Source: Fusobacterium mortiferum (lineage in GTDB: Bacteria; Fusobacteriota; Fusobacteriia; Fusobacteriales; Fusobacteriaceae). From it: DNA of 40,400 bases. The stretch lies in assembly GCF_016900045.1 (NCBI RefSeq), contig NZ_JACSNP010000016.1:1-40400 (forward strand), given 5' to 3'. Numbering within the stretch: position 1 is the first letter of the stretch; each line of letters begins with the position of its first letter. The notes under the pieces were generated by a model that worked only from the letters and a program-made list of their open reading frames with translations, was not told where the DNA came from and searched no databases. This document shows positions 12,815 to 29,944 of the stretch, in pieces. The translations under genes were made by a program, and so were the position numbers.

Positions 12815-13963
12815 TTAAAATTTAAGAGTTTCTAATCTATCAAAAGCCTCTTTTAATATAGAGATATCTAGAGTACAAGCTATTCTAATATAATTAGGAG
12901 CTCCAAAAGATTCACCATTTAATAAGATAATATTCAGCTTATCAAAAACTAAATCTACAAACTCTTGAGTTGAAAGTTTTGTTTTCTCAATATTAACAAA
13001 TAGATATATTCCTCCTTGTGACTTAAAGGCTTTTAAATATGGAATATTTTTTATTCTATTATACGAGTATTCAATTCTTTCTTTAAATATAGGAACTACC
13101 TCTTTCTTTATTCTATCAAAATCTTTTAGAGCATAAAGAGCAGCTCTTTGAGACACAGAGGGAGCACTATATATAATACTCTCATTAATATACTCCATAG
13201 TCTCAATAAGATTTGGAACCTTTGATATAGTATATCCTATTCTCCACCCAGTCATAGCAAAATCTTTTGAAAAACTACAAATAGATAAAGTTCTTTTATC
13301 CATACCCTCCAGAGTAAATATTGGAGTGAAACTATTTTCATATGAATAAAAATCGTAAACATCATCAGCTATAACTAAAAGATCATATTTCTCTGCCAAT
13401 TCTTTTATGATATTTAAACTTTTCTCGTTATAACAAACTCCAGTTGGATTAGATGGAGTATTTATTACAATAGCCTTAGTTTTATCTGTTATAACCTTTT
13501 CAATATCCTCTTTTATAAGTTGAAACTCATTTTCTAATTTTGTTTCAACAATTACAGGAATACCATCAGAAAGTTTTATCTGATCAGCATATATGGGAAA
13601 ATATGGAGCGAGTAAAATAACCTCATCATCTTTGTTAAGAATAGCTTTAAAAGCTAAGTATAGAGCATGGCAAGCCCCAGTTGTGATAAAAGTATCCTCT
13701 ATAGAGAAGTTATAATTTTTAAATCTATTTTTATGATAATTTACTATCTCTTCACGAAGTTCAATGTATCCATAGGGATTTGTATAGTGAGTATATCCAT
13801 TTAAAGCATCATTCATAGCTTTTTCAACTATTTTTTTATCAGTATGAATATCTAAATCTCCTATTCCTAAATTTATCAAAGAGTAGTTAGATAAACTCTT
13901 TTTAAATTTATCTCCCATAGAATAATTTCTTACTTTAAATTTATCAGCTATTATCTCTCTCAT
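12815..13963 (-). CDS. Class I/II PLP-dependent aminotransferase (YbdL/MtnE-like)
   Basis: A fold-type I aminotransferase of 382 residues. The PLP lysine is Lys233 in CSFSKDFAMTGWRIGY. NTPSNPTG near 178-185 and IADDVY near 198-203 supply cofactor contacts, and a C-terminal Arg in YIRIACTLD likely binds substrate carboxylate. It resembles aspartate/methionine/aromatic aminotransferases; the exact amino acid cannot be read from the sequence. The start at 13963 overlaps the upstream dehydrogenase stop by 4 bases and has aggagga upstream. Pairing with a YbdH/HcxA-like dehydrogenase recalls the ybdL-ybdH neighbourhood of E. coli, where YbdL is a methionine aminotransferase. Confidence 0.85.
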   Translation of the reverse strand: MREIIADKFKVRNYSMGDKFKKSLSNYSLINLGIGDLDIHTDKKIVEKAMNDALNGYTHYTNPYGYIELREEIVNYHKNRFKNYNFSIEDTFITTGACHALYLAFKAILNKDDEVILLAPYFPIYADQIKLSDGIPVIVETKLENEFQLIKEDIEKVITDKTKAIVINTPSNPTGVCYNEKSLNIIKELAEKYDLLVIADDVYDFYSYENSFTPIFTLEGMDKRTLSICSFSKDFAMTGWRIGYTISKVPNLIETMEYINESIIYSAPSVSQRAALYALKDFDRIKKEVVPIFKERIEYSYNRIKNIPYLKAFKSQGGIYLFVNIEKTKLSTQEFVDLVFDKLNIILLNGESFGAPNYIRIACTLDISILKEAFDRLETLKF

Positions 13964-15030
13964 ACTTTCCTCCTATATAGTGCAGATTTAAATTTTTCTC
14001 TATCCAATTCAAAGCCCATCTTAAAAAGATCTGGCATATCTGGTGAGTTTATTATAATATCTATAATTTTATCTTCAATACCTTTAAAATTTTTAATCTC
14101 TATAAAATCCTCTAATTTAGTAGGATATTTCAATTTATTATAAAAATCAATAAGTTTTTCATATTCTGAATAATTATCCTCAACTAGTAGTTGAATTAAG
14201 ATACCATATGCTACAAGCTCACCGTGGAGATGATTTTTTTCAATAGAGTGTATATTTCCTAGGCCATAGCATACAGAATGAGCAATAGCTCCATTTAGAT
14301 ACTCCTCTACTAAATTAGAAGTATAACCAGTATTAACAATTATAGCGAGAATTACATTTTTAAACTCTTTTTCAATATCAGAAGAGTAGAAAGCATTCTC
14401 TCCATATTTAAGGATAAGTTCTCTGCAAAGAGTACTAATAGTTCTACCTAGAGTACTTTGATAACTTAGTTCCTTTCCAGAATTGATAGACCATCTACTT
14501 TTGATATCAACCTCATAGAATTTTGCTAAGGTATCACCCATTCCAGCCCAAATATATTTTTTAGGAGCATTTTTTAAAGTCTCTAAATCAATAAAGGTTT
14601 TTAAAGGAGGAGCTGAAAAATTTATAATTTCAGCAAAAGCTCCATTTTGATTATAAACTACAGAAAGAGATGAGGTAGCAGCACAAGTAGCAGCTATTGT
14701 AGGGATAGTTAAAATATTTATCCCTAATTTAAAAGCTACTAATTTTGCTGTATCAAGGGCTTTTCCACCCCCAATTCCAACAACGATATCAAATTTTTTA
14801 TCAAGATTTTTTGCTAAAATTCTTTCAACATTAAAATGTGAGCACTCTTTACCATAAAGTTCAATAGTATAAGTTTGGTTAGTGAGAGCATATTTAAGTT
14901 TTTTATCAATAGAAGTTAGAGAGGTTTCTCCACCTATAATCAATATGTTTTTAAAACTTTCCAATTCTTTTTTTAACTCCTCTTTAATATCTTTATCTAT
15001 TATATATGATGTAAATGAGAGTTTTTCCAT
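13960..15030 (-). CDS. Iron-containing alcohol dehydrogenase family protein (YbdH/HcxA-like)
   Basis: This 356-residue protein belongs to the iron-containing/glycerol dehydrogenase-like family. The dinucleotide loop GIGGGKALDTAK lies at about 85-96. The family metal ligands are visible: an Asp in AGMGDTLAKFYE, a His in GAIAHSVCYGLGN and a His in EKNHLHGELVAYG. In E. coli the YbdH (HcxA) branch reduces 2-oxo acids to 2-hydroxy acids, which would fit the aminotransferase encoded next to it. Glycerol dehydrogenase proper is the alternative. It starts 3 bases after the binding-protein stop and overlaps the aminotransferase gene, so all three are probably one transcript. Confidence 0.8.
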   Translation of the reverse strand: MEKLSFTSYIIDKDIKEELKKELESFKNILIIGGETSLTSIDKKLKYALTNQTYTIELYGKECSHFNVERILAKNLDKKFDIVVGIGGGKALDTAKLVAFKLGINILTIPTIAATCAATSSLSVVYNQNGAFAEIINFSAPPLKTFIDLETLKNAPKKYIWAGMGDTLAKFYEVDIKSRWSINSGKELSYQSTLGRTISTLCRELILKYGENAFYSSDIEKEFKNVILAIIVNTGYTSNLVEEYLNGAIAHSVCYGLGNIHSIEKNHLHGELVAYGILIQLLVEDNYSEYEKLIDFYNKLKYPTKLEDFIEIKNFKGIEDKIIDIIINSPDMPDLFKMGFELDREKFKSALYRRKV

Positions 15031-15033
15031 AAC

Positions 15034-15777
15034 CTACACCCCATATTTTTCTCTTAATTTAGCAATAGTACCATCATCTAAAAGCTCTTTTAAAGCTTTA
15101 TCAAATTTTTCTTTTAGAGCAACACTGTCTTTATTGAAAGCTATTGCTTTTGGTTCTCCATCAAGACAAGTAACAAGGACTAAGTCAGGATTTTTTTGGA
15201 CGAAGCTATTGGCAACACTTTCATCTACAACAATACTATCAATTTTTCCACTTTTTAAAGCAACAAGGGCAGCAGTGTTTGAAGAGAAAGGAACAACAGA
15301 AGCTCCCTCGATCTTTCTAGCTACAGCCTCTTTAGTTGTACCTAATTCAGCACCATAGGTTTTATTGATTAGATCCTCTTTTCCATTTATAGGTTTACTT
15401 TTATTAGCTATGATAGCTACATTTGAAGTAAGATAAGGGATAGAGAAGTTAACGGCCTTTGCTCTTTCAGGAGTAATACTCATTCCAGCTATGGCAACAT
15501 CGATTTTTTTAGTTTGTAAAGCTGGAATCAAACCATCAAAATTCATATTTTTCCACTCATATTTTATGCCAGTTTTTTTAGCTATTTCGCTTATAATATC
15601 CGCATCTAGCCCCACAATTTTATTATTTTCTAAATACTCAAAAGGTGGATATTCAGCATTAGTTGCAATAACATAAGTTTTTTCACTAGCTAGAGTGTTT
15701 TCACTCTCTTTCTCATTACAAGATACCAACATAAAAGCACAAAGTCCAAAAGTTAAAAGTTTTAAAAATTTTTTCAT
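15034..15777 (-). CDS. Amino-acid ABC transporter substrate-binding lipoprotein (SBP family 3)
   Basis: A secreted solute-binding protein of 247 residues. The signal peptide runs from MKKFLKLLTFG to the lipobox LVSC, giving a lipidated Cys20. The family 3 pattern follows: YVIATNAEYPPFEYLENNKI, then GLDADIISEIAKKTG, then DGLIPALQTKKIDVAIAGMS and a KLREKYG-type C-terminus. Polar amino acids or cystine are usual ligands. The start is ATG 15777 with tggaggga; an upstream in-frame TTG lies in the terminator T tract. No permease or ATPase gene is adjacent, so it must work with a transporter encoded elsewhere. It is the first gene behind the attenuator-like leader. Confidence 0.9.
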   Translation of the reverse strand: MKKFLKLLTFGLCAFMLVSCNEKESENTLASEKTYVIATNAEYPPFEYLENNKIVGLDADIISEIAKKTGIKYEWKNMNFDGLIPALQTKKIDVAIAGMSITPERAKAVNFSIPYLTSNVAIIANKSKPINGKEDLINKTYGAELGTTKEAVARKIEGASVVPFSSNTAALVALKSGKIDSIVVDESVANSFVQKNPDLVLVTCLDGEPKAIAFNKDSVALKEKFDKALKELLDDGTIAKLREKYGV

Positions 15778-15801
15778 ATTTTTCCCTCCAGATATTTTTA
15801 T

Positions 15802-15836
15802 AAAAAAAAGCACTAACTCCTAAAGGAATCAGTGCT
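15802..15836 (-). terminator. Leader terminator (attenuator) upstream of the binding-protein operon
   Basis: On the minus strand, agcactgattcc (15836-15825) pairs with ggagttagtgct (15820-15809) through 12 pairs including G-U, with loop ttta, followed by a run of T. It lies between a near-consensus promoter and the first gene, 25 bases before the ATG, with no annotated gene upstream to terminate. It must therefore act on the operon's own leader. Confidence 0.85.
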
Positions 15837-15870
15837 AAATTACATTAAAATAAAAAATATAAAATAATGT

Positions 15871-15951
15871 TTAGATAGACAGATTTATACTTAGGAATAT
15901 ACTAGAAAAATTATTTAATTTTTTGATATTCCTTAAAACCATCATAAACAT
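15871..15951 (-). CDS. Putative 26-residue leader peptide
   Basis: The ATG at 15951 follows a purine-rich aaggggga site. The reading frame encodes MFMMVLRNIKK, then a Leu/Asn/Ser/Ile-rich tail, and stops with TAA at 15871, before the leader terminator. Three of the first four codons are Met. The ORF contains both arms of an 8-bp inverted repeat (15933-15926 with 15900-15893). The arrangement looks like a leader peptide of an attenuation system. It could also be a chance ORF inside an uncharacterised RNA aptamer. Confidence 0.4.
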   Translation of the reverse strand: MFMMVLRNIKKLNNFSSIFLSINLSI

Positions 15952-15985
15952 TACTCTCTCCCCCTTGAAAATATTTATTGAAATG

Positions 15986-16014
15986 ATTATAAAATATTAT
16001 TTTTAAAAAGTCAA
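15986..16014 (-). promoter_or_regulatory. Strong promoter of the binding-protein/dehydrogenase/aminotransferase operon
   Basis: On the minus strand TTGACT (16014-16009) and TATAAT (15991-15986) are separated by 17 bases. The predicted start near 15979 gives a leader of about 200 bases before the ATG at 15777. Confidence 0.85.
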
Positions 16015-16037: not shown

Positions 16038-17372
16038 TTAATTTTTTAATTTAAAACTTTTTAATAATTTTTTTAAAAGGAAGAGTGATAAAATTCCAGT
16101 TAAAATAGAGGTTATAGATGAATTCCACCAAAGTCCTGTTAGTTTTAATCTCCAAAGAAGAGGGATAGATAGTATTGGAAAGATAAAAGTTACACACAGT
16201 GAGATAAAGGTAGCTGAGTGAAATTTTCCAATAGCAGACATAAAACTCTGTATAGCAAAGGATAACCATCTAGTGAGATATGTAGTAGCAAAAATTATAA
16301 GTGCAGGAATAGCTAAAGTAAAGGTATCATCTCTTTGTGGAATAAATAGAGAGGCAATCTCTTCAGTAAATAGGAAGATGATAGAACTTGTAACTATTGA
16401 GGTGATAGCACTTGCAATAAGACAGTATTTTTCAATAACTTTAACACGAGAATAATTTTTAGCTCCCCAGTTATAACCAAGAGCTGGTTGTAGAGCATCA
16501 CACATTCCATACAGAACTGGAAGGATAAAAGCTTCAATACACATCAATATTCCATAGATACTGACAGCTGAAACCCCTCCAAGATAGAGTAATAGATAGT
16601 TAAAAAGTATATTGGTAATACGACTGGCTACATTATTTAGAAATGTAGGCATTCCATTTGTAAATATTGATTTGAGATAAGTATACTCAATCTTAAAATT
16701 ACAAAATTTTAAACTACTATCATTTTTAAAAAATTGGGAAAAAGCTATAAGTGTACATATGAAAAATGCTATACAGTTAGCAAGGGCAGCACCTATCAAT
16801 TCAAATTTAAAAAAATAAAGAAACAAAATCTCTAAGGAGATACATAAAAAAGACATAAAAATATTTAAAAACATACTAAACTTAATCTTTCCACAGATTC
16901 TCAAATAGTTATCTACTGCAAAGATACAAGTAGTAAGCGGTGAAAATAAAGCATAAACTCTTAGATATTTTATAGATTGCCTTGCAAGTTCTCCAGTGGC
17001 TCCCAATAGATGTAAGATATTTGGTGCAAAGAAAAATAGTATAACTCCAGAGAGAGTACTAGATATAAATATGATAAAACAAGAGAGAGAAAAAAGTTTA
17101 GAAGCTTTCTCAAACCTTTTTTCTCCAAGTAAAATAGCAATACTTACAGATGACCCAATCCCTATCAAATCAGAGATACCAAAATTGAGGACAACAATAG
17201 GAATGGTCATATTAAAGGCAGCAAAGGCTATTTCACCAAGAAGTCGACTAATAATAACACCATCTAAAAAAAGATAGATAGCAGAGGCGAGCATACCTAT
17301 TGACCCTGGTATAGCAGCTTTAAAAAAAAGCTTTAGAGGTGGGGTTTTTTCAAAAAAACTTATATTCTCCAT
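16038..17372 (-). CDS. MATE family multidrug/cation efflux transporter
   Basis: A 444-residue polytopic membrane protein with about twelve hydrophobic spans. The N-terminal segment FFKAAIPGSIGMLASAIYLFLDGVII and the loop ALQPALGYNWGAKNY are typical of the MATE family (MepA/NorM-like), which exports drugs or cationic compounds using an ion gradient. The ATG at 17372 is preceded by aaggag on the minus strand. It is a single gene, with its own unusual promoter and no repressor beside it. The substrate cannot be predicted. Confidence 0.9.
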   Translation of the reverse strand: MENISFFEKTPPLKLFFKAAIPGSIGMLASAIYLFLDGVIISRLLGEIAFAAFNMTIPIVVLNFGISDLIGIGSSVSIAILLGEKRFEKASKLFSLSCFIIFISSTLSGVILFFFAPNILHLLGATGELARQSIKYLRVYALFSPLTTCIFAVDNYLRICGKIKFSMFLNIFMSFLCISLEILFLYFFKFELIGAALANCIAFFICTLIAFSQFFKNDSSLKFCNFKIEYTYLKSIFTNGMPTFLNNVASRITNILFNYLLLYLGGVSAVSIYGILMCIEAFILPVLYGMCDALQPALGYNWGAKNYSRVKVIEKYCLIASAITSIVTSSIIFLFTEEIASLFIPQRDDTFTLAIPALIIFATTYLTRWLSFAIQSFMSAIGKFHSATFISLCVTFIFPILSIPLLWRLKLTGLWWNSSITSILTGILSLFLLKKLLKSFKLKN

Positions 17373-27481: not shown

Positions 27482-27504
27482 TCAAAATGAATAGAATAAA
27501 TAAA

Positions 27505-27585
27505 AAGCTACTAGGGGTGCTATATTTGGCTGAGAAATACCCTTGGAACCTGTTCTAGATAATACTAGCGTAGGGAAGTGGCAAG
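27505..27585 (+). ncRNA. TPP riboswitch (THI element)
   Basis: The conserved THI-box core is present in order: ctaggggtgc (27511-27520), ggctgagaaatacccttgg across 27528-27546, aacctg, then the tctagataatactagcgtagggaa segment (27554-27577). The core matches the thiamine pyrophosphate aptamer. It precedes thiD, thiE and thiM, which fits a TPP-repressed salvage operon. The downstream hairpin at 27602 makes transcription termination the likely mechanism. Confidence 0.96.
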
Positions 27586-27601
27586 TGTTTTAGTATATAT
27601 G

Positions 27602-27637
27602 CCATTTCTTTATTATAAAGAGGTGGTTTTTTATTTT
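27602..27637 (+). terminator. Riboswitch-controlled terminator before thiD
   Basis: Ccatttcttta (27602-27612) can pair with taaagaggtgg (27616-27626) over 11 pairs including two G-U, followed by TTTTTTATTTT. Its 5' flank tgcca can alternatively pair with tggca at the 3' end of the aptamer (agtggcaag), giving a possible antiterminator. Confidence 0.8.
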
Positions 27638-27682
27638 CATTCTATAAACTATATATTAAATTGTTTTAGGAGGAGAATAAAG

Positions 27683-28489
27683 ATGAAAAAAGTTTTAACA
27701 ATTGCTGGGTCAGATAGTTGTGGAGGAGCTGGAATACAAGCAGATTTAAAAACAATGAGTGCTTTAGGTGTATATGGTATGAGTGTTATTACAGCGGTGA
27801 CAGCTCAAAATACTTTAGGAGTTTTTGGAGTTGAAGATATATCAAAGGAGATAGTTCAAAAGCAGATTGAAGTTATTTTCGAGGATATAGATGTAGATGC
27901 TGTAAAGATAGGAATGCTATCAAGTAGTGAATTAATAACTGTTATTCAAGAAACATTGGCTAAGTATTCAGCAAAAAATATTGTAATAGATCCTGTGATG
28001 ATCTCTAAAAGTAAATATAAATTATTAAAAGATGAAGCTATTGAGAGTTTAAAAAAATTTTTAAAAATAGGAACTCTTGTAACACCTAATATACCTGAGG
28101 CTGAGGTTTTAAGTGGAATGGAGATAAAGAGTGAAGAGGATATGATAAGAGCTGCTAAAAAAATTAAAGAGCTAGGTGTAAAAAATGTTTTAGTAAAAGG
28201 TGGACATAGAGAGGATAATTGTACAGATATTTTATTTTTAGAGAATGGCGAAATAGTTAAATTCTATGGTGAAAGAATAGAGAGTAAGAATACCCATGGG
28301 ACAGGATGTACTCTTTCATCAGCTATAGCCTCTTTATTAGGAAAGGGGTATTCTGTAGAAAAGGCTGTTGAAATTGCAAAAAAATACATTACTCTTGCAA
28401 TAAAAAACTCTTTTGAAATTGGAGAAGGTGTTGGACCTGTAGGGCATTTTATTGACCTATATAAAAAAGCTGGTGTTGATTATGAATAA
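27683..28489 (+). CDS. thiD: Hydroxymethylpyrimidine/phosphomethylpyrimidine kinase
   Basis: ThiD phosphorylates HMP to HMP-PP for thiamine synthesis or salvage. The 268-residue ribokinase-fold protein shows TIAGSDSCGGAGIQADLKT at the N-terminus, VKIGMLSS, VIDPVMISKS and the anion-hole motif THGTGCTLSSAIAS. I chose ATG 27683, with aggagga upstream. The longer in-frame start at 27578 would lie inside the riboswitch. Its stop overlaps the thiE start. No thiC is present, so the pyrimidine is probably imported. Confidence 0.95.
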   Translation: MKKVLTIAGSDSCGGAGIQADLKTMSALGVYGMSVITAVTAQNTLGVFGVEDISKEIVQKQIEVIFEDIDVDAVKIGMLSSSELITVIQETLAKYSAKNIVIDPVMISKSKYKLLKDEAIESLKKFLKIGTLVTPNIPEAEVLSGMEIKSEEDMIRAAKKIKELGVKNVLVKGGHREDNCTDILFLENGEIVKFYGERIESKNTHGTGCTLSSAIASLLGKGYSVEKAVEIAKKYITLAIKNSFEIGEGVGPVGHFIDLYKKAGVDYE

Positions 28490-29120
28490 AAAAAATGTAG
28501 ATTACTCTCTTTATCTAGTTACAGATAGAGGAATTTTGAAAGGAAGAGATATTTTAGAAGCAATAGAGGAGAGTATATTAGGAGGAGTCACTATTATACA
28601 GTTAAGAGAGAAGACAGCTTCAAAGGAGGAATTTCTAAAACTTGCTAAAGAGGTAAAAGGCATAACTGATAAATACAGTATTCCATTAATTATTAATGAC
28701 AATGTAGAGATGGCTAAAGCTATAGATGCAGATGGTGTCCATCTTGGACAAAGTGATGAAAAGCTTACAAGGGCGAGAGAGATTTTAGGAGATAGAAAAA
28801 TTATAGGAATATCAGTTGGAAATGTAGAGGAAGCTAAGTTAGCAGAGAAAAACGGAGCTGATTATTTAGGGATAGGAGCTGTATTTTATACAGATAGTAA
28901 AAAGGATATAAATGAACCTATGGGAATAGCTGGATTAAAGAGAATAGTTAAGAGTGTAAATATTCCTAATGTAGCAATAGGGGGGATACACTTATCTAAT
29001 GTGAAAGAGGTTATGGAAACAGGAACAGATGGTATAGCTGTTATATCAGAAATTTTAGGTAAAGAAAATATCAGGGAAGCAACAGTAAATTTAAAAAAGA
29101 GATTAAAAAAATCTAAATAA
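28482..29120 (+). CDS. thiE: Thiamine-phosphate synthase
   Basis: ThiE joins HMP-PP and thiazole phosphate to make thiamine phosphate. The 212-residue TIM-barrel protein carries YLVTDRG, TIIQLREKTASKEEF, LIINDNVEMAKAIDADGVHLGQ, and IGIGAVFYTDSKKD-like and AIGGIH segments of the family. The ATG at 28482 overlaps the thiD stop (ATGAATAA), so coupling is likely. The longer frame from TTG 28452 lacks a ribosome site. thiM follows after 17 bases. Confidence 0.95.
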   Translation: MNKKNVDYSLYLVTDRGILKGRDILEAIEESILGGVTIIQLREKTASKEEFLKLAKEVKGITDKYSIPLIINDNVEMAKAIDADGVHLGQSDEKLTRAREILGDRKIIGISVGNVEEAKLAEKNGADYLGIGAVFYTDSKKDINEPMGIAGLKRIVKSVNIPNVAIGGIHLSNVKEVMETGTDGIAVISEILGKENIREATVNLKKRLKKSK

Positions 29121-29137
29121 TAGGGGGAGGAAACATT

Positions 29138-29944
29138 ATGAGAGCAGAGATTTTAAATATAGTTAGAGAGAAAAATCCAGTTGTATTTCATATTACAAAT
29201 AGCGTTACAATAAATGATTGTGCAAACATCACTTTAGCATTGGGTGGGTCACCTTTAATGTCATATTGTAAAGAGGAATTAAGAGAGATTCTATCCTTTT
29301 CTTCGGCTTTAGTAATAAATATTGGAACAATGGAAAGTAAGATGTGTGAAATGGTTATAGAAGCTGGGAAACTAGCAAATGAATTAAATGTACCAGTTAT
29401 ACTAGATCCAGTTGGAGCTGGAGCTTCGGCTTCAAGGGAAAATTTGGTGAAAAAATTAATTTCAAATGTTAAATTTGCTGTTATAAAGGGAAATTTAGCA
29501 GAGATAAAAACAATAGCAGGAATAAAAAATGAAAATAATAAAGGTGTTGATTCAGTAGAAGAGTTTGAAAATAGTTCATCTTTAGCAAAGGAATTAGCAA
29601 TAGAGTTAGAGAGTGTCATAGCTATTACTGGCAAGGAAGATATTGTAAGTGATGGAAAGAGAGTTTGTAAAATAAAAAATGGAACTCCTCTTCTTAGAAA
29701 GGTTACTGGAACTGGATGTATGACTGCCTCTTTGATAGGAACAATTTGTGGAGCCTACAGAGAAGATATTTATGAAGGAGCTATTCTTGGAGTTGTTCTC
29801 ATGGGAATTGCTGGAGAGATAGCGGAAAAAAGTTTAACTTCTGAAGAGGGAAGTGGAACTTTTAGAATGAGAATTATTGATAATATTTTTAATATGACTG
29901 AAGAAAAGATAAGAGAAAATATAAAAATAAATTTTGAAAATTAA
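29138..29944 (+). CDS. thiM: Hydroxyethylthiazole kinase
   Basis: ThiM phosphorylates the thiazole alcohol THZ, feeding ThiE. The 268-residue protein shows VFHITNSVTINDCANITLA, GGSPLMSYCKEEL, ILDPVGAGAS, VIKGNLAEIKTI and the nucleotide-binding VTGTGCMTASLIG. The ATG at 29138 follows gggggagga. With thiD and thiE it forms a pure salvage set; the thiazole-making thiG, thiH and thiF are absent. About 100 bases separate it from the next gene, with no clear terminator. Confidence 0.95.
   Translation: MRAEILNIVREKNPVVFHITNSVTINDCANITLALGGSPLMSYCKEELREILSFSSALVINIGTMESKMCEMVIEAGKLANELNVPVILDPVGAGASASRENLVKKLISNVKFAVIKGNLAEIKTIAGIKNENNKGVDSVEEFENSSSLAKELAIELESVIAITGKEDIVSDGKRVCKIKNGTPLLRKVTGTGCMTASLIGTICGAYREDIYEGAILGVVLMGIAGEIAEKSLTSEEGSGTFRMRIIDNIFNMTEEKIRENIKINFEN

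Follow-up and report, generated by a model that had tools for sequence, protein, structure and literature searches.

An arginine-codon leader with features of a transcription attenuator ahead of uptake and conversion operons in the Fusobacteriaceae

Attenuators of the trp, his and ilv type combine a leader peptide containing control codons with mutually exclusive hairpins and an intrinsic terminator ahead of the first gene, and the control codons are placed where a stalled ribosome masks the first of the pairing segments. A 2010 survey names Proteobacteria and Actinobacteria as the only groups with leader-peptide systems known until then, and adds Firmicutes (PMC2965389); a survey of noncoding RNAs in 26 genomes, Fusobacteria included, reports other uORF motifs (PMC8632094). 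Among leaders with arginine codons, SpeFL (orf34), which precedes speF-potE in Salmonella and E. coli (DUF2618), has early rare Arg codons and arginine-dependent expression; its codons 12 and 13, both Arg, fall in a conserved HIRRT core, termination depends on Rho, and decay involves RNase G (PMC6386406). In Staphylococcus aureus, the AGA and rare AGG codons of the rbfL leader report arginine limitation; rbfL blocks the next ribosome site, such that translation initiation is affected and expression is lowered (PMC13009471). The hflX leader uORFC-6-1 of Bacillales is a short ORF with Arg-Leu-Arg, lies within an RNA structure with covariation, and is thought to respond to antibiotics (PMC8632094). 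Our literature search, covering few subscription journals, revealed neither a Fusobacterium example nor an intrinsic-terminator attenuator controlled by arginine, and arginine attenuation in this phylum is apparently undescribed.

Here we describe a leader in Fusobacterium mortiferum that, judging from sequence comparison and modelled folding, is probably a ribosome-mediated transcription attenuator sensing arginine supply. It lies within a 40,400-nucleotide stretch (the window; positions 1 to 40,400 of contig NZ_JACSNP010000016.1) of a 2.04-Mb genome in 283 contigs (G000), between a MATE gene (16038-17372, minus strand) and the gene for an ABC-transporter binding protein (SBP). It shares the general layout of the trp, his and ilv attenuators but differs in that the proposed control is by arginine through few codons (1-4), mostly rare AGG inside segment 1, in that the predicted antiterminator appears to engage the loop and 3' arm of the terminator and not its 5' arm, and in that Fusobacteriaceae uptake and conversion genes follow rather than a biosynthetic operon. 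Unlike in SpeFL, the Arg codons are mostly at positions 3-8 and the terminator is intrinsic, and the HIRRT core is absent from the leader peptides examined. Whereas rbfL acts on translation initiation and lowers expression, the response predicted here is transcription antitermination, which would raise it; and the Arg-Leu-Arg motif of uORFC-6-1 is not general in these leaders.

The first-pass annotation had taken this segment for an attenuator of no characterised kind, with a mini-ORF and pairings that exclude one another, and the promoter, ribosome site, 26-codon ORF and terminator that it reported are all in place on the minus strand (Table 1). Comparison with related leaders gives good support to both this anatomy and the predicted alternative pairings. 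The leader has a folding energy of -43.6, compared with -32.8 for dinucleotide shuffles (sd 3.9, z -2.8). It had also been noted that no known riboswitch was recognisable, and this holds: Rfam 15 gave no family match in the window leader at curated thresholds and chance-level matches only at permissive ones, none of its leader and riboswitch covariance models (T-box, SAM, lysine, and glycine among them) matches, and the leaders of relatives have no match either.

Table 1. Features of the leader and of the operon that it precedes, in window coordinates.
Feature	Position	Strand	Remarks
Sigma-70-type promoter, TTGACT-17-TATAAT	15986..16014	-	11/12 consensus matches
Promoter boxes	TTGACT 16014-16009; 17-base spacer; TATAAT 15991-15986	-	
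Shine-Dalgarno site of mini-ORF, AAGGGGGAG	15958..15966	-	Read from sequence
Leader peptide ORF, 26 codons, MFMMVLRNIKKLNNFSSIFLSINLSI	15871..15951	-	Predicted; counterparts in 18 leader groups; ATG at 15951, TAA stop codon 15873-15871
Candidate regulatory Arg codon 7 (AGG)	15931..15933	-	First triplet of segment 1
Segment 1, AGGAATAT	15926..15933	-	Basis: pairing with segment 2
Segment 2, ATATTCCT	15893..15900	-	Basis: comparative pairing
Predicted antiterminator, 5' half (segment 2 and flanks)	~15903-15890	-	
Intrinsic terminator	15809..15836	-	12 bp, then T run; -16.8 kcal/mol
Predicted antiterminator, 3' half (terminator loop and 3' arm)	~15824-15811	-	
Amino-acid binding protein of ABC transporter (SBP_bac_3), first operon gene	15034..15777	-	
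Iron-alcohol-dehydrogenase family protein (glycerol dehydrogenase / PRK10586-like)	13960..15030	-	
Class I/II PLP aminotransferase (PRK06348-like)	12815..13963	-	

Comparison with related genomes shows that the architecture is kept. It precedes related operons in 18 leader groups from about 20 Fusobacteriaceae genomes, with sequences that have largely diverged, and the shared layout consists of a promoter, a Shine-Dalgarno site, an ORF of 19-27 codons, and a terminator. Most of the relatives' leaders have a similar promoter ahead, a purine-rich ribosome site occupies the same place, and the mini-ORF is homologous or analogous in all 18 groups. BLASTN with the whole leader matched close relatives alone, a loose DNA pattern for segment 1 performed no better than its reversed control, and a profile search of genome contigs gave no match with a single-protein query and mostly distant binding proteins with an alignment query. 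A covariance model of the ORF hairpin, run on 96 genomes of the order, matched leaders on which it had not been trained upstream of SBP paralogues in six genomes (G024, G025, G027, G005, G009, and G011), and another upstream of an operon for an M20 amidohydrolase and SBP in G020; matches L181-L184, L188, L189, and L191 were rejected by context, being intragenic or lacking an Arg leader. A mechanical scan of Fusobacteriota loci for a Shine-Dalgarno site, mini-ORF, terminator and gene, blind to arginine content, detected 29 architectures, of which three fall outside the arginine class (one leader is listed twice through an inner ATG). Those detected include a second copy on contig C207 of the window genome and leaders ahead of the separate dehydrogenase gene of G004, G005, and G009; the scanned loci had mostly been retrieved for related genes, so the scan is not an unbiased survey. 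Likewise, most loci were picked by SBP homology, and the regulon is thus sampled with bias.

The early codons of the mini-ORFs are rich in arginine. Codons 2-8 in 13 leader groups include 30 Arg codons among 91, compared with a background of 3.6% at the same codon positions of ordinary genes (p=4.5e-21), and AGG, which makes up 7% of background Arg codons, accounts for 21 of these 30 (p=4.7e-17). At least one AGG lies within codons 2-10 in every one of the 18 groups; in the window it is codon 7, the only Arg codon of that leader. The five groups found later are enriched when taken alone (10 of 45 in codons 2-10, p=3e-6). Because arginine is in places written AGA, CGT, CGC or CGG, it is the amino acid that is kept and not merely the letters AGGA. 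Control codons for one amino acid are conserved and enriched here, as they are in attenuators of the trp and his type.

The pairings were compared in two ways. Across 11 aligned leaders, a shallow alignment, the helix between segments 1 and 2 is paired in 92.6% of cells; two of its pairs are changed on both sides, and all slid registers score worse. In a swap test, each segment was paired either with its own partner or with the partner from another leader group; own partners win for segments 1 and 2 (z -7.5, with 0 of 5000 permutations as good) and for segment 2 with the terminator loop and 3' arm (z -3.1, 13/5000), figures that are not strict probabilities because the leader groups share ancestry. 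The control pairing of segment 1 with the terminator 3' arm has no own-partner advantage (975/5000), and neither the 5' UTR nor the gap between the stop codon and the terminator has a specific pairing with the terminator. The fit of segment 2 is better to the 3' arm and loop (4/2000) than to the 5' arm (53/2000). Comparison supports a mutually exclusive antiterminator pairing, moderately so for segment 2 with the terminator. The first-pass annotation had named the helix between segments 1 and 2 and the opening of the terminator by segment 2 when segment 1 is masked, both of which agree with the swap test and the latter also with modelled folding. Its further pairing, of segment 1 with the 5' arm of the terminator, is present in the sequence but has weaker comparative support (25/2000), and may just mirror the two other pairings.

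A mask the size of a ribosome was placed on each codon in turn, and the relative stability of the terminated and antiterminated folds was computed each time with soft penalties. In the window, the largest shift toward antitermination (-7.0 kcal/mol) occurs with AGG codon 7 in the A site, and masks from codon 14 to the stop codon give practically no shift. The strongest mask position falls within codons 2-8 in 12 of the 13 groups, and shuffling upstream of the terminator reached the native shift in 2 of 520 cases. Most of the later-found leaders behave alike, with G006d strongest at codon 8 and G030d at codon 10, both Arg codons; the exceptions are G007d, which is strongest at a late codon, and G022m, which is weak. 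The effect is also weak in G029 and G025p. With the ribosome on AGG-7 the terminator is still favoured by 4.4 kcal/mol at equilibrium, and the attenuation model therefore needs co-transcriptional kinetics.

We infer from these patterns that the mini-ORF is translated, that charged tRNA-Arg is sensed, and that scarcity raises expression. The promoter would give rise to the leader RNA, on which a ribosome would translate the 26-codon peptide. With ample arginyl-tRNA, the ribosome would reach the stop codon, segments 1 and 2 would pair, the terminator would form, and RNA polymerase would halt ahead of the operon. With scarce arginyl-tRNA, the ribosome would pause at the rare AGG codon 7, covering segment 1, and the freed segment 2 would pair with the terminator loop and 3' arm, allowing transcription of the SBP-dehydrogenase-aminotransferase operon. 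The rare codon would act as the sensor while also belonging to the RNA switch, and the model yields directly testable codon and pairing predictions.

The genes behind the leaders bear on the signal. The window SBP most resembles Lys/Arg/Orn binders, with a TIGR01096 score below cut-off, and its nearest solved structure is the ancestral AncQR, a Gln/Arg binder, followed by other amino-acid binders; these similarities suggest arginine as the substrate of the SBP, and that of the operon is probably arginine or a derivative. The first-pass annotation had proposed control of an amino-acid cassette; the cassettes point to arginine, not methionine. The window gene order is also present in G020, G024-G027, G029-G031, G035, and G056, and G049-G051 have the SBP and aminotransferase genes without the dehydrogenase; overall, the leader-linked genes comprise an arginine-type SBP with dehydrogenase/aminotransferase, racemase-like, amidohydrolase or dimethylargininase genes. 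The leader lies ahead of SBP-dimethylargininase operons in G018 and G032, whose dimethylargininases score 378 and 358 bits with NF045658, below its cut-off of 450; phmmer gives E 2e-98 to a solved dimethylarginine dimethylaminohydrolase. Among 61 genomes there are five copies of the dimethylargininase, and an Arg leader is ahead of all five. In G006, G007, and G030, which were inspected only after the link had been proposed, there is an SBP gene preceded by an Arg leader and terminator in 3/3; AGG occupies codons 3 and 8 in two of these leaders and codons 8 and 10 in the other. This outcome links the leader to arginine by a route separate from the codon counts. A search of the family for arginine deiminase (arcA) gave no match, and none of the retrieved argS genes had an Arg leader ahead of it.

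An alanine-racemase-like gene directly follows the leader-controlled SBP gene in two loci (L192:4245-5318 and L193:8629-9690). Their TIGR00492 scores (144 and 160 bits) fall short of the 168-bit cut-off, and a different amino acid, perhaps arginine, may therefore be the substrate.

The arginine codons could alternatively be the motif of an arrest peptide that senses free arginine, ornithine or citrulline within the ribosome, as SpeFL does for ornithine and TnaC for tryptophan. Many groups have arginine at similar positions (codons 3-4 and 6-8), several share QLN or KLN following it, and the genes concern arginine-type compounds, all in keeping with arrest; however, beyond the Arg codons the peptide is hardly conserved between groups, the arginine spacing is variable, and a nascent chain after 3-8 residues is too short to fill the exit tunnel. 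The strong preference for rare AGG also fits tRNA sensing better, and we think an arrest peptide unlikely. Rare codons may also report slow translation in general, and a +X+ motif (Arg/Lys-X-Arg/Lys) is the kind used by macrolide-responsive leaders to sense a ribosome-targeting drug. R-L-R, R-I-R or R-F-R is present in some leaders (G025p, G051, and G032), and an Arg-Leu-Arg leader of hflX is known in Bacillales (PMC8632094), but +X+ is absent from the window (MFMMVLRN) and from G024-G027 (FKNLRS), and the inspected downstream genes are metabolic, with no resistance or ribosome-rescue gene among them, making this very unlikely.

An unknown metabolite aptamer, or a mere terminator of the upstream MATE gene accompanied by a chance ORF, is highly improbable. 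The stretch from the MATE stop codon to the leader promoter yielded no terminator-like site, so the leader hairpin can also serve the MATE gene; yet the ORF with its Arg codons, as well as both pairings, is seen again ahead of operons whose neighbours differ. No conserved core was seen across leader groups outside the ORF hairpin and terminator, and the new aptamer once considered for this leader is therefore not needed. The first-pass annotation supposed stalling at the early Met codons (1, 3, and 4), but the chance that the leader responds to methionine in this way is close to negligible. The window peptide does start MFMM, and in Cetobacterium-like genomes an SBP homologue follows a metQ-like gene; however, the Met-rich start is not conserved, being present in this species alone, and Met accounts for three of the 91 codons at positions 2-8 in 13 groups, against 30 for Arg, and for 5 of 162 at positions 2-10 in 18 groups.

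If arginine attenuation is correct, classical attenuation operates in the Fusobacterium phylum, known for amino-acid fermentation, with arginine as the signal, and a set of uncharacterised operons is marked as arginine-related. We tentatively extend this to a family-wide arginine regulon under one portable attenuator, a possibility that we hold somewhat doubtful, in which low arginyl-tRNA would lead to the import of arginine derivatives and their conversion into arginine or citrulline. Each operon would provide an arginine-type SBP and a different enzyme—dimethylargininase, racemase-like, M20 amidohydrolase, or dehydrogenase plus aminotransferase—and the derivatives imported would be methylated, D-form, acylated, and 2-hydroxy or 2-oxo compounds. 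Such a regulon would define a class of attenuators specific for arginine, in which the terminator is intrinsic and the antiterminator forms on its 3' arm.

A second Arg-codon attenuator is present in the genome of the window (L198; contig C207, first 6 kb, minus strand), with the leader peptide MLLRTLKLRKFNIKLNTLSLYIPSINIALSL ahead of an operon for an M20 amidohydrolase and SBP. In the Cetobacterium-type genomes G005, G004, and G009 (L040, L042, and L044), the dehydrogenase gene stands apart from the SBP operon and has its own Arg leader, beginning MSLRKVRAMFWFMYYFKT..., and in L040, L042, L044, and L046 a leaderless SBP homologue lies directly after a gene resembling a metQ-type lipoprotein. 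The G005 locus also contains a c-di-GMP-I riboswitch on the minus strand (L040:2681-2756, 65.1 bits). Elsewhere in the window, at 27503-29944, a TPP riboswitch (76.7 bits) is ahead of genes reading as thiD, thiE, and thiM.
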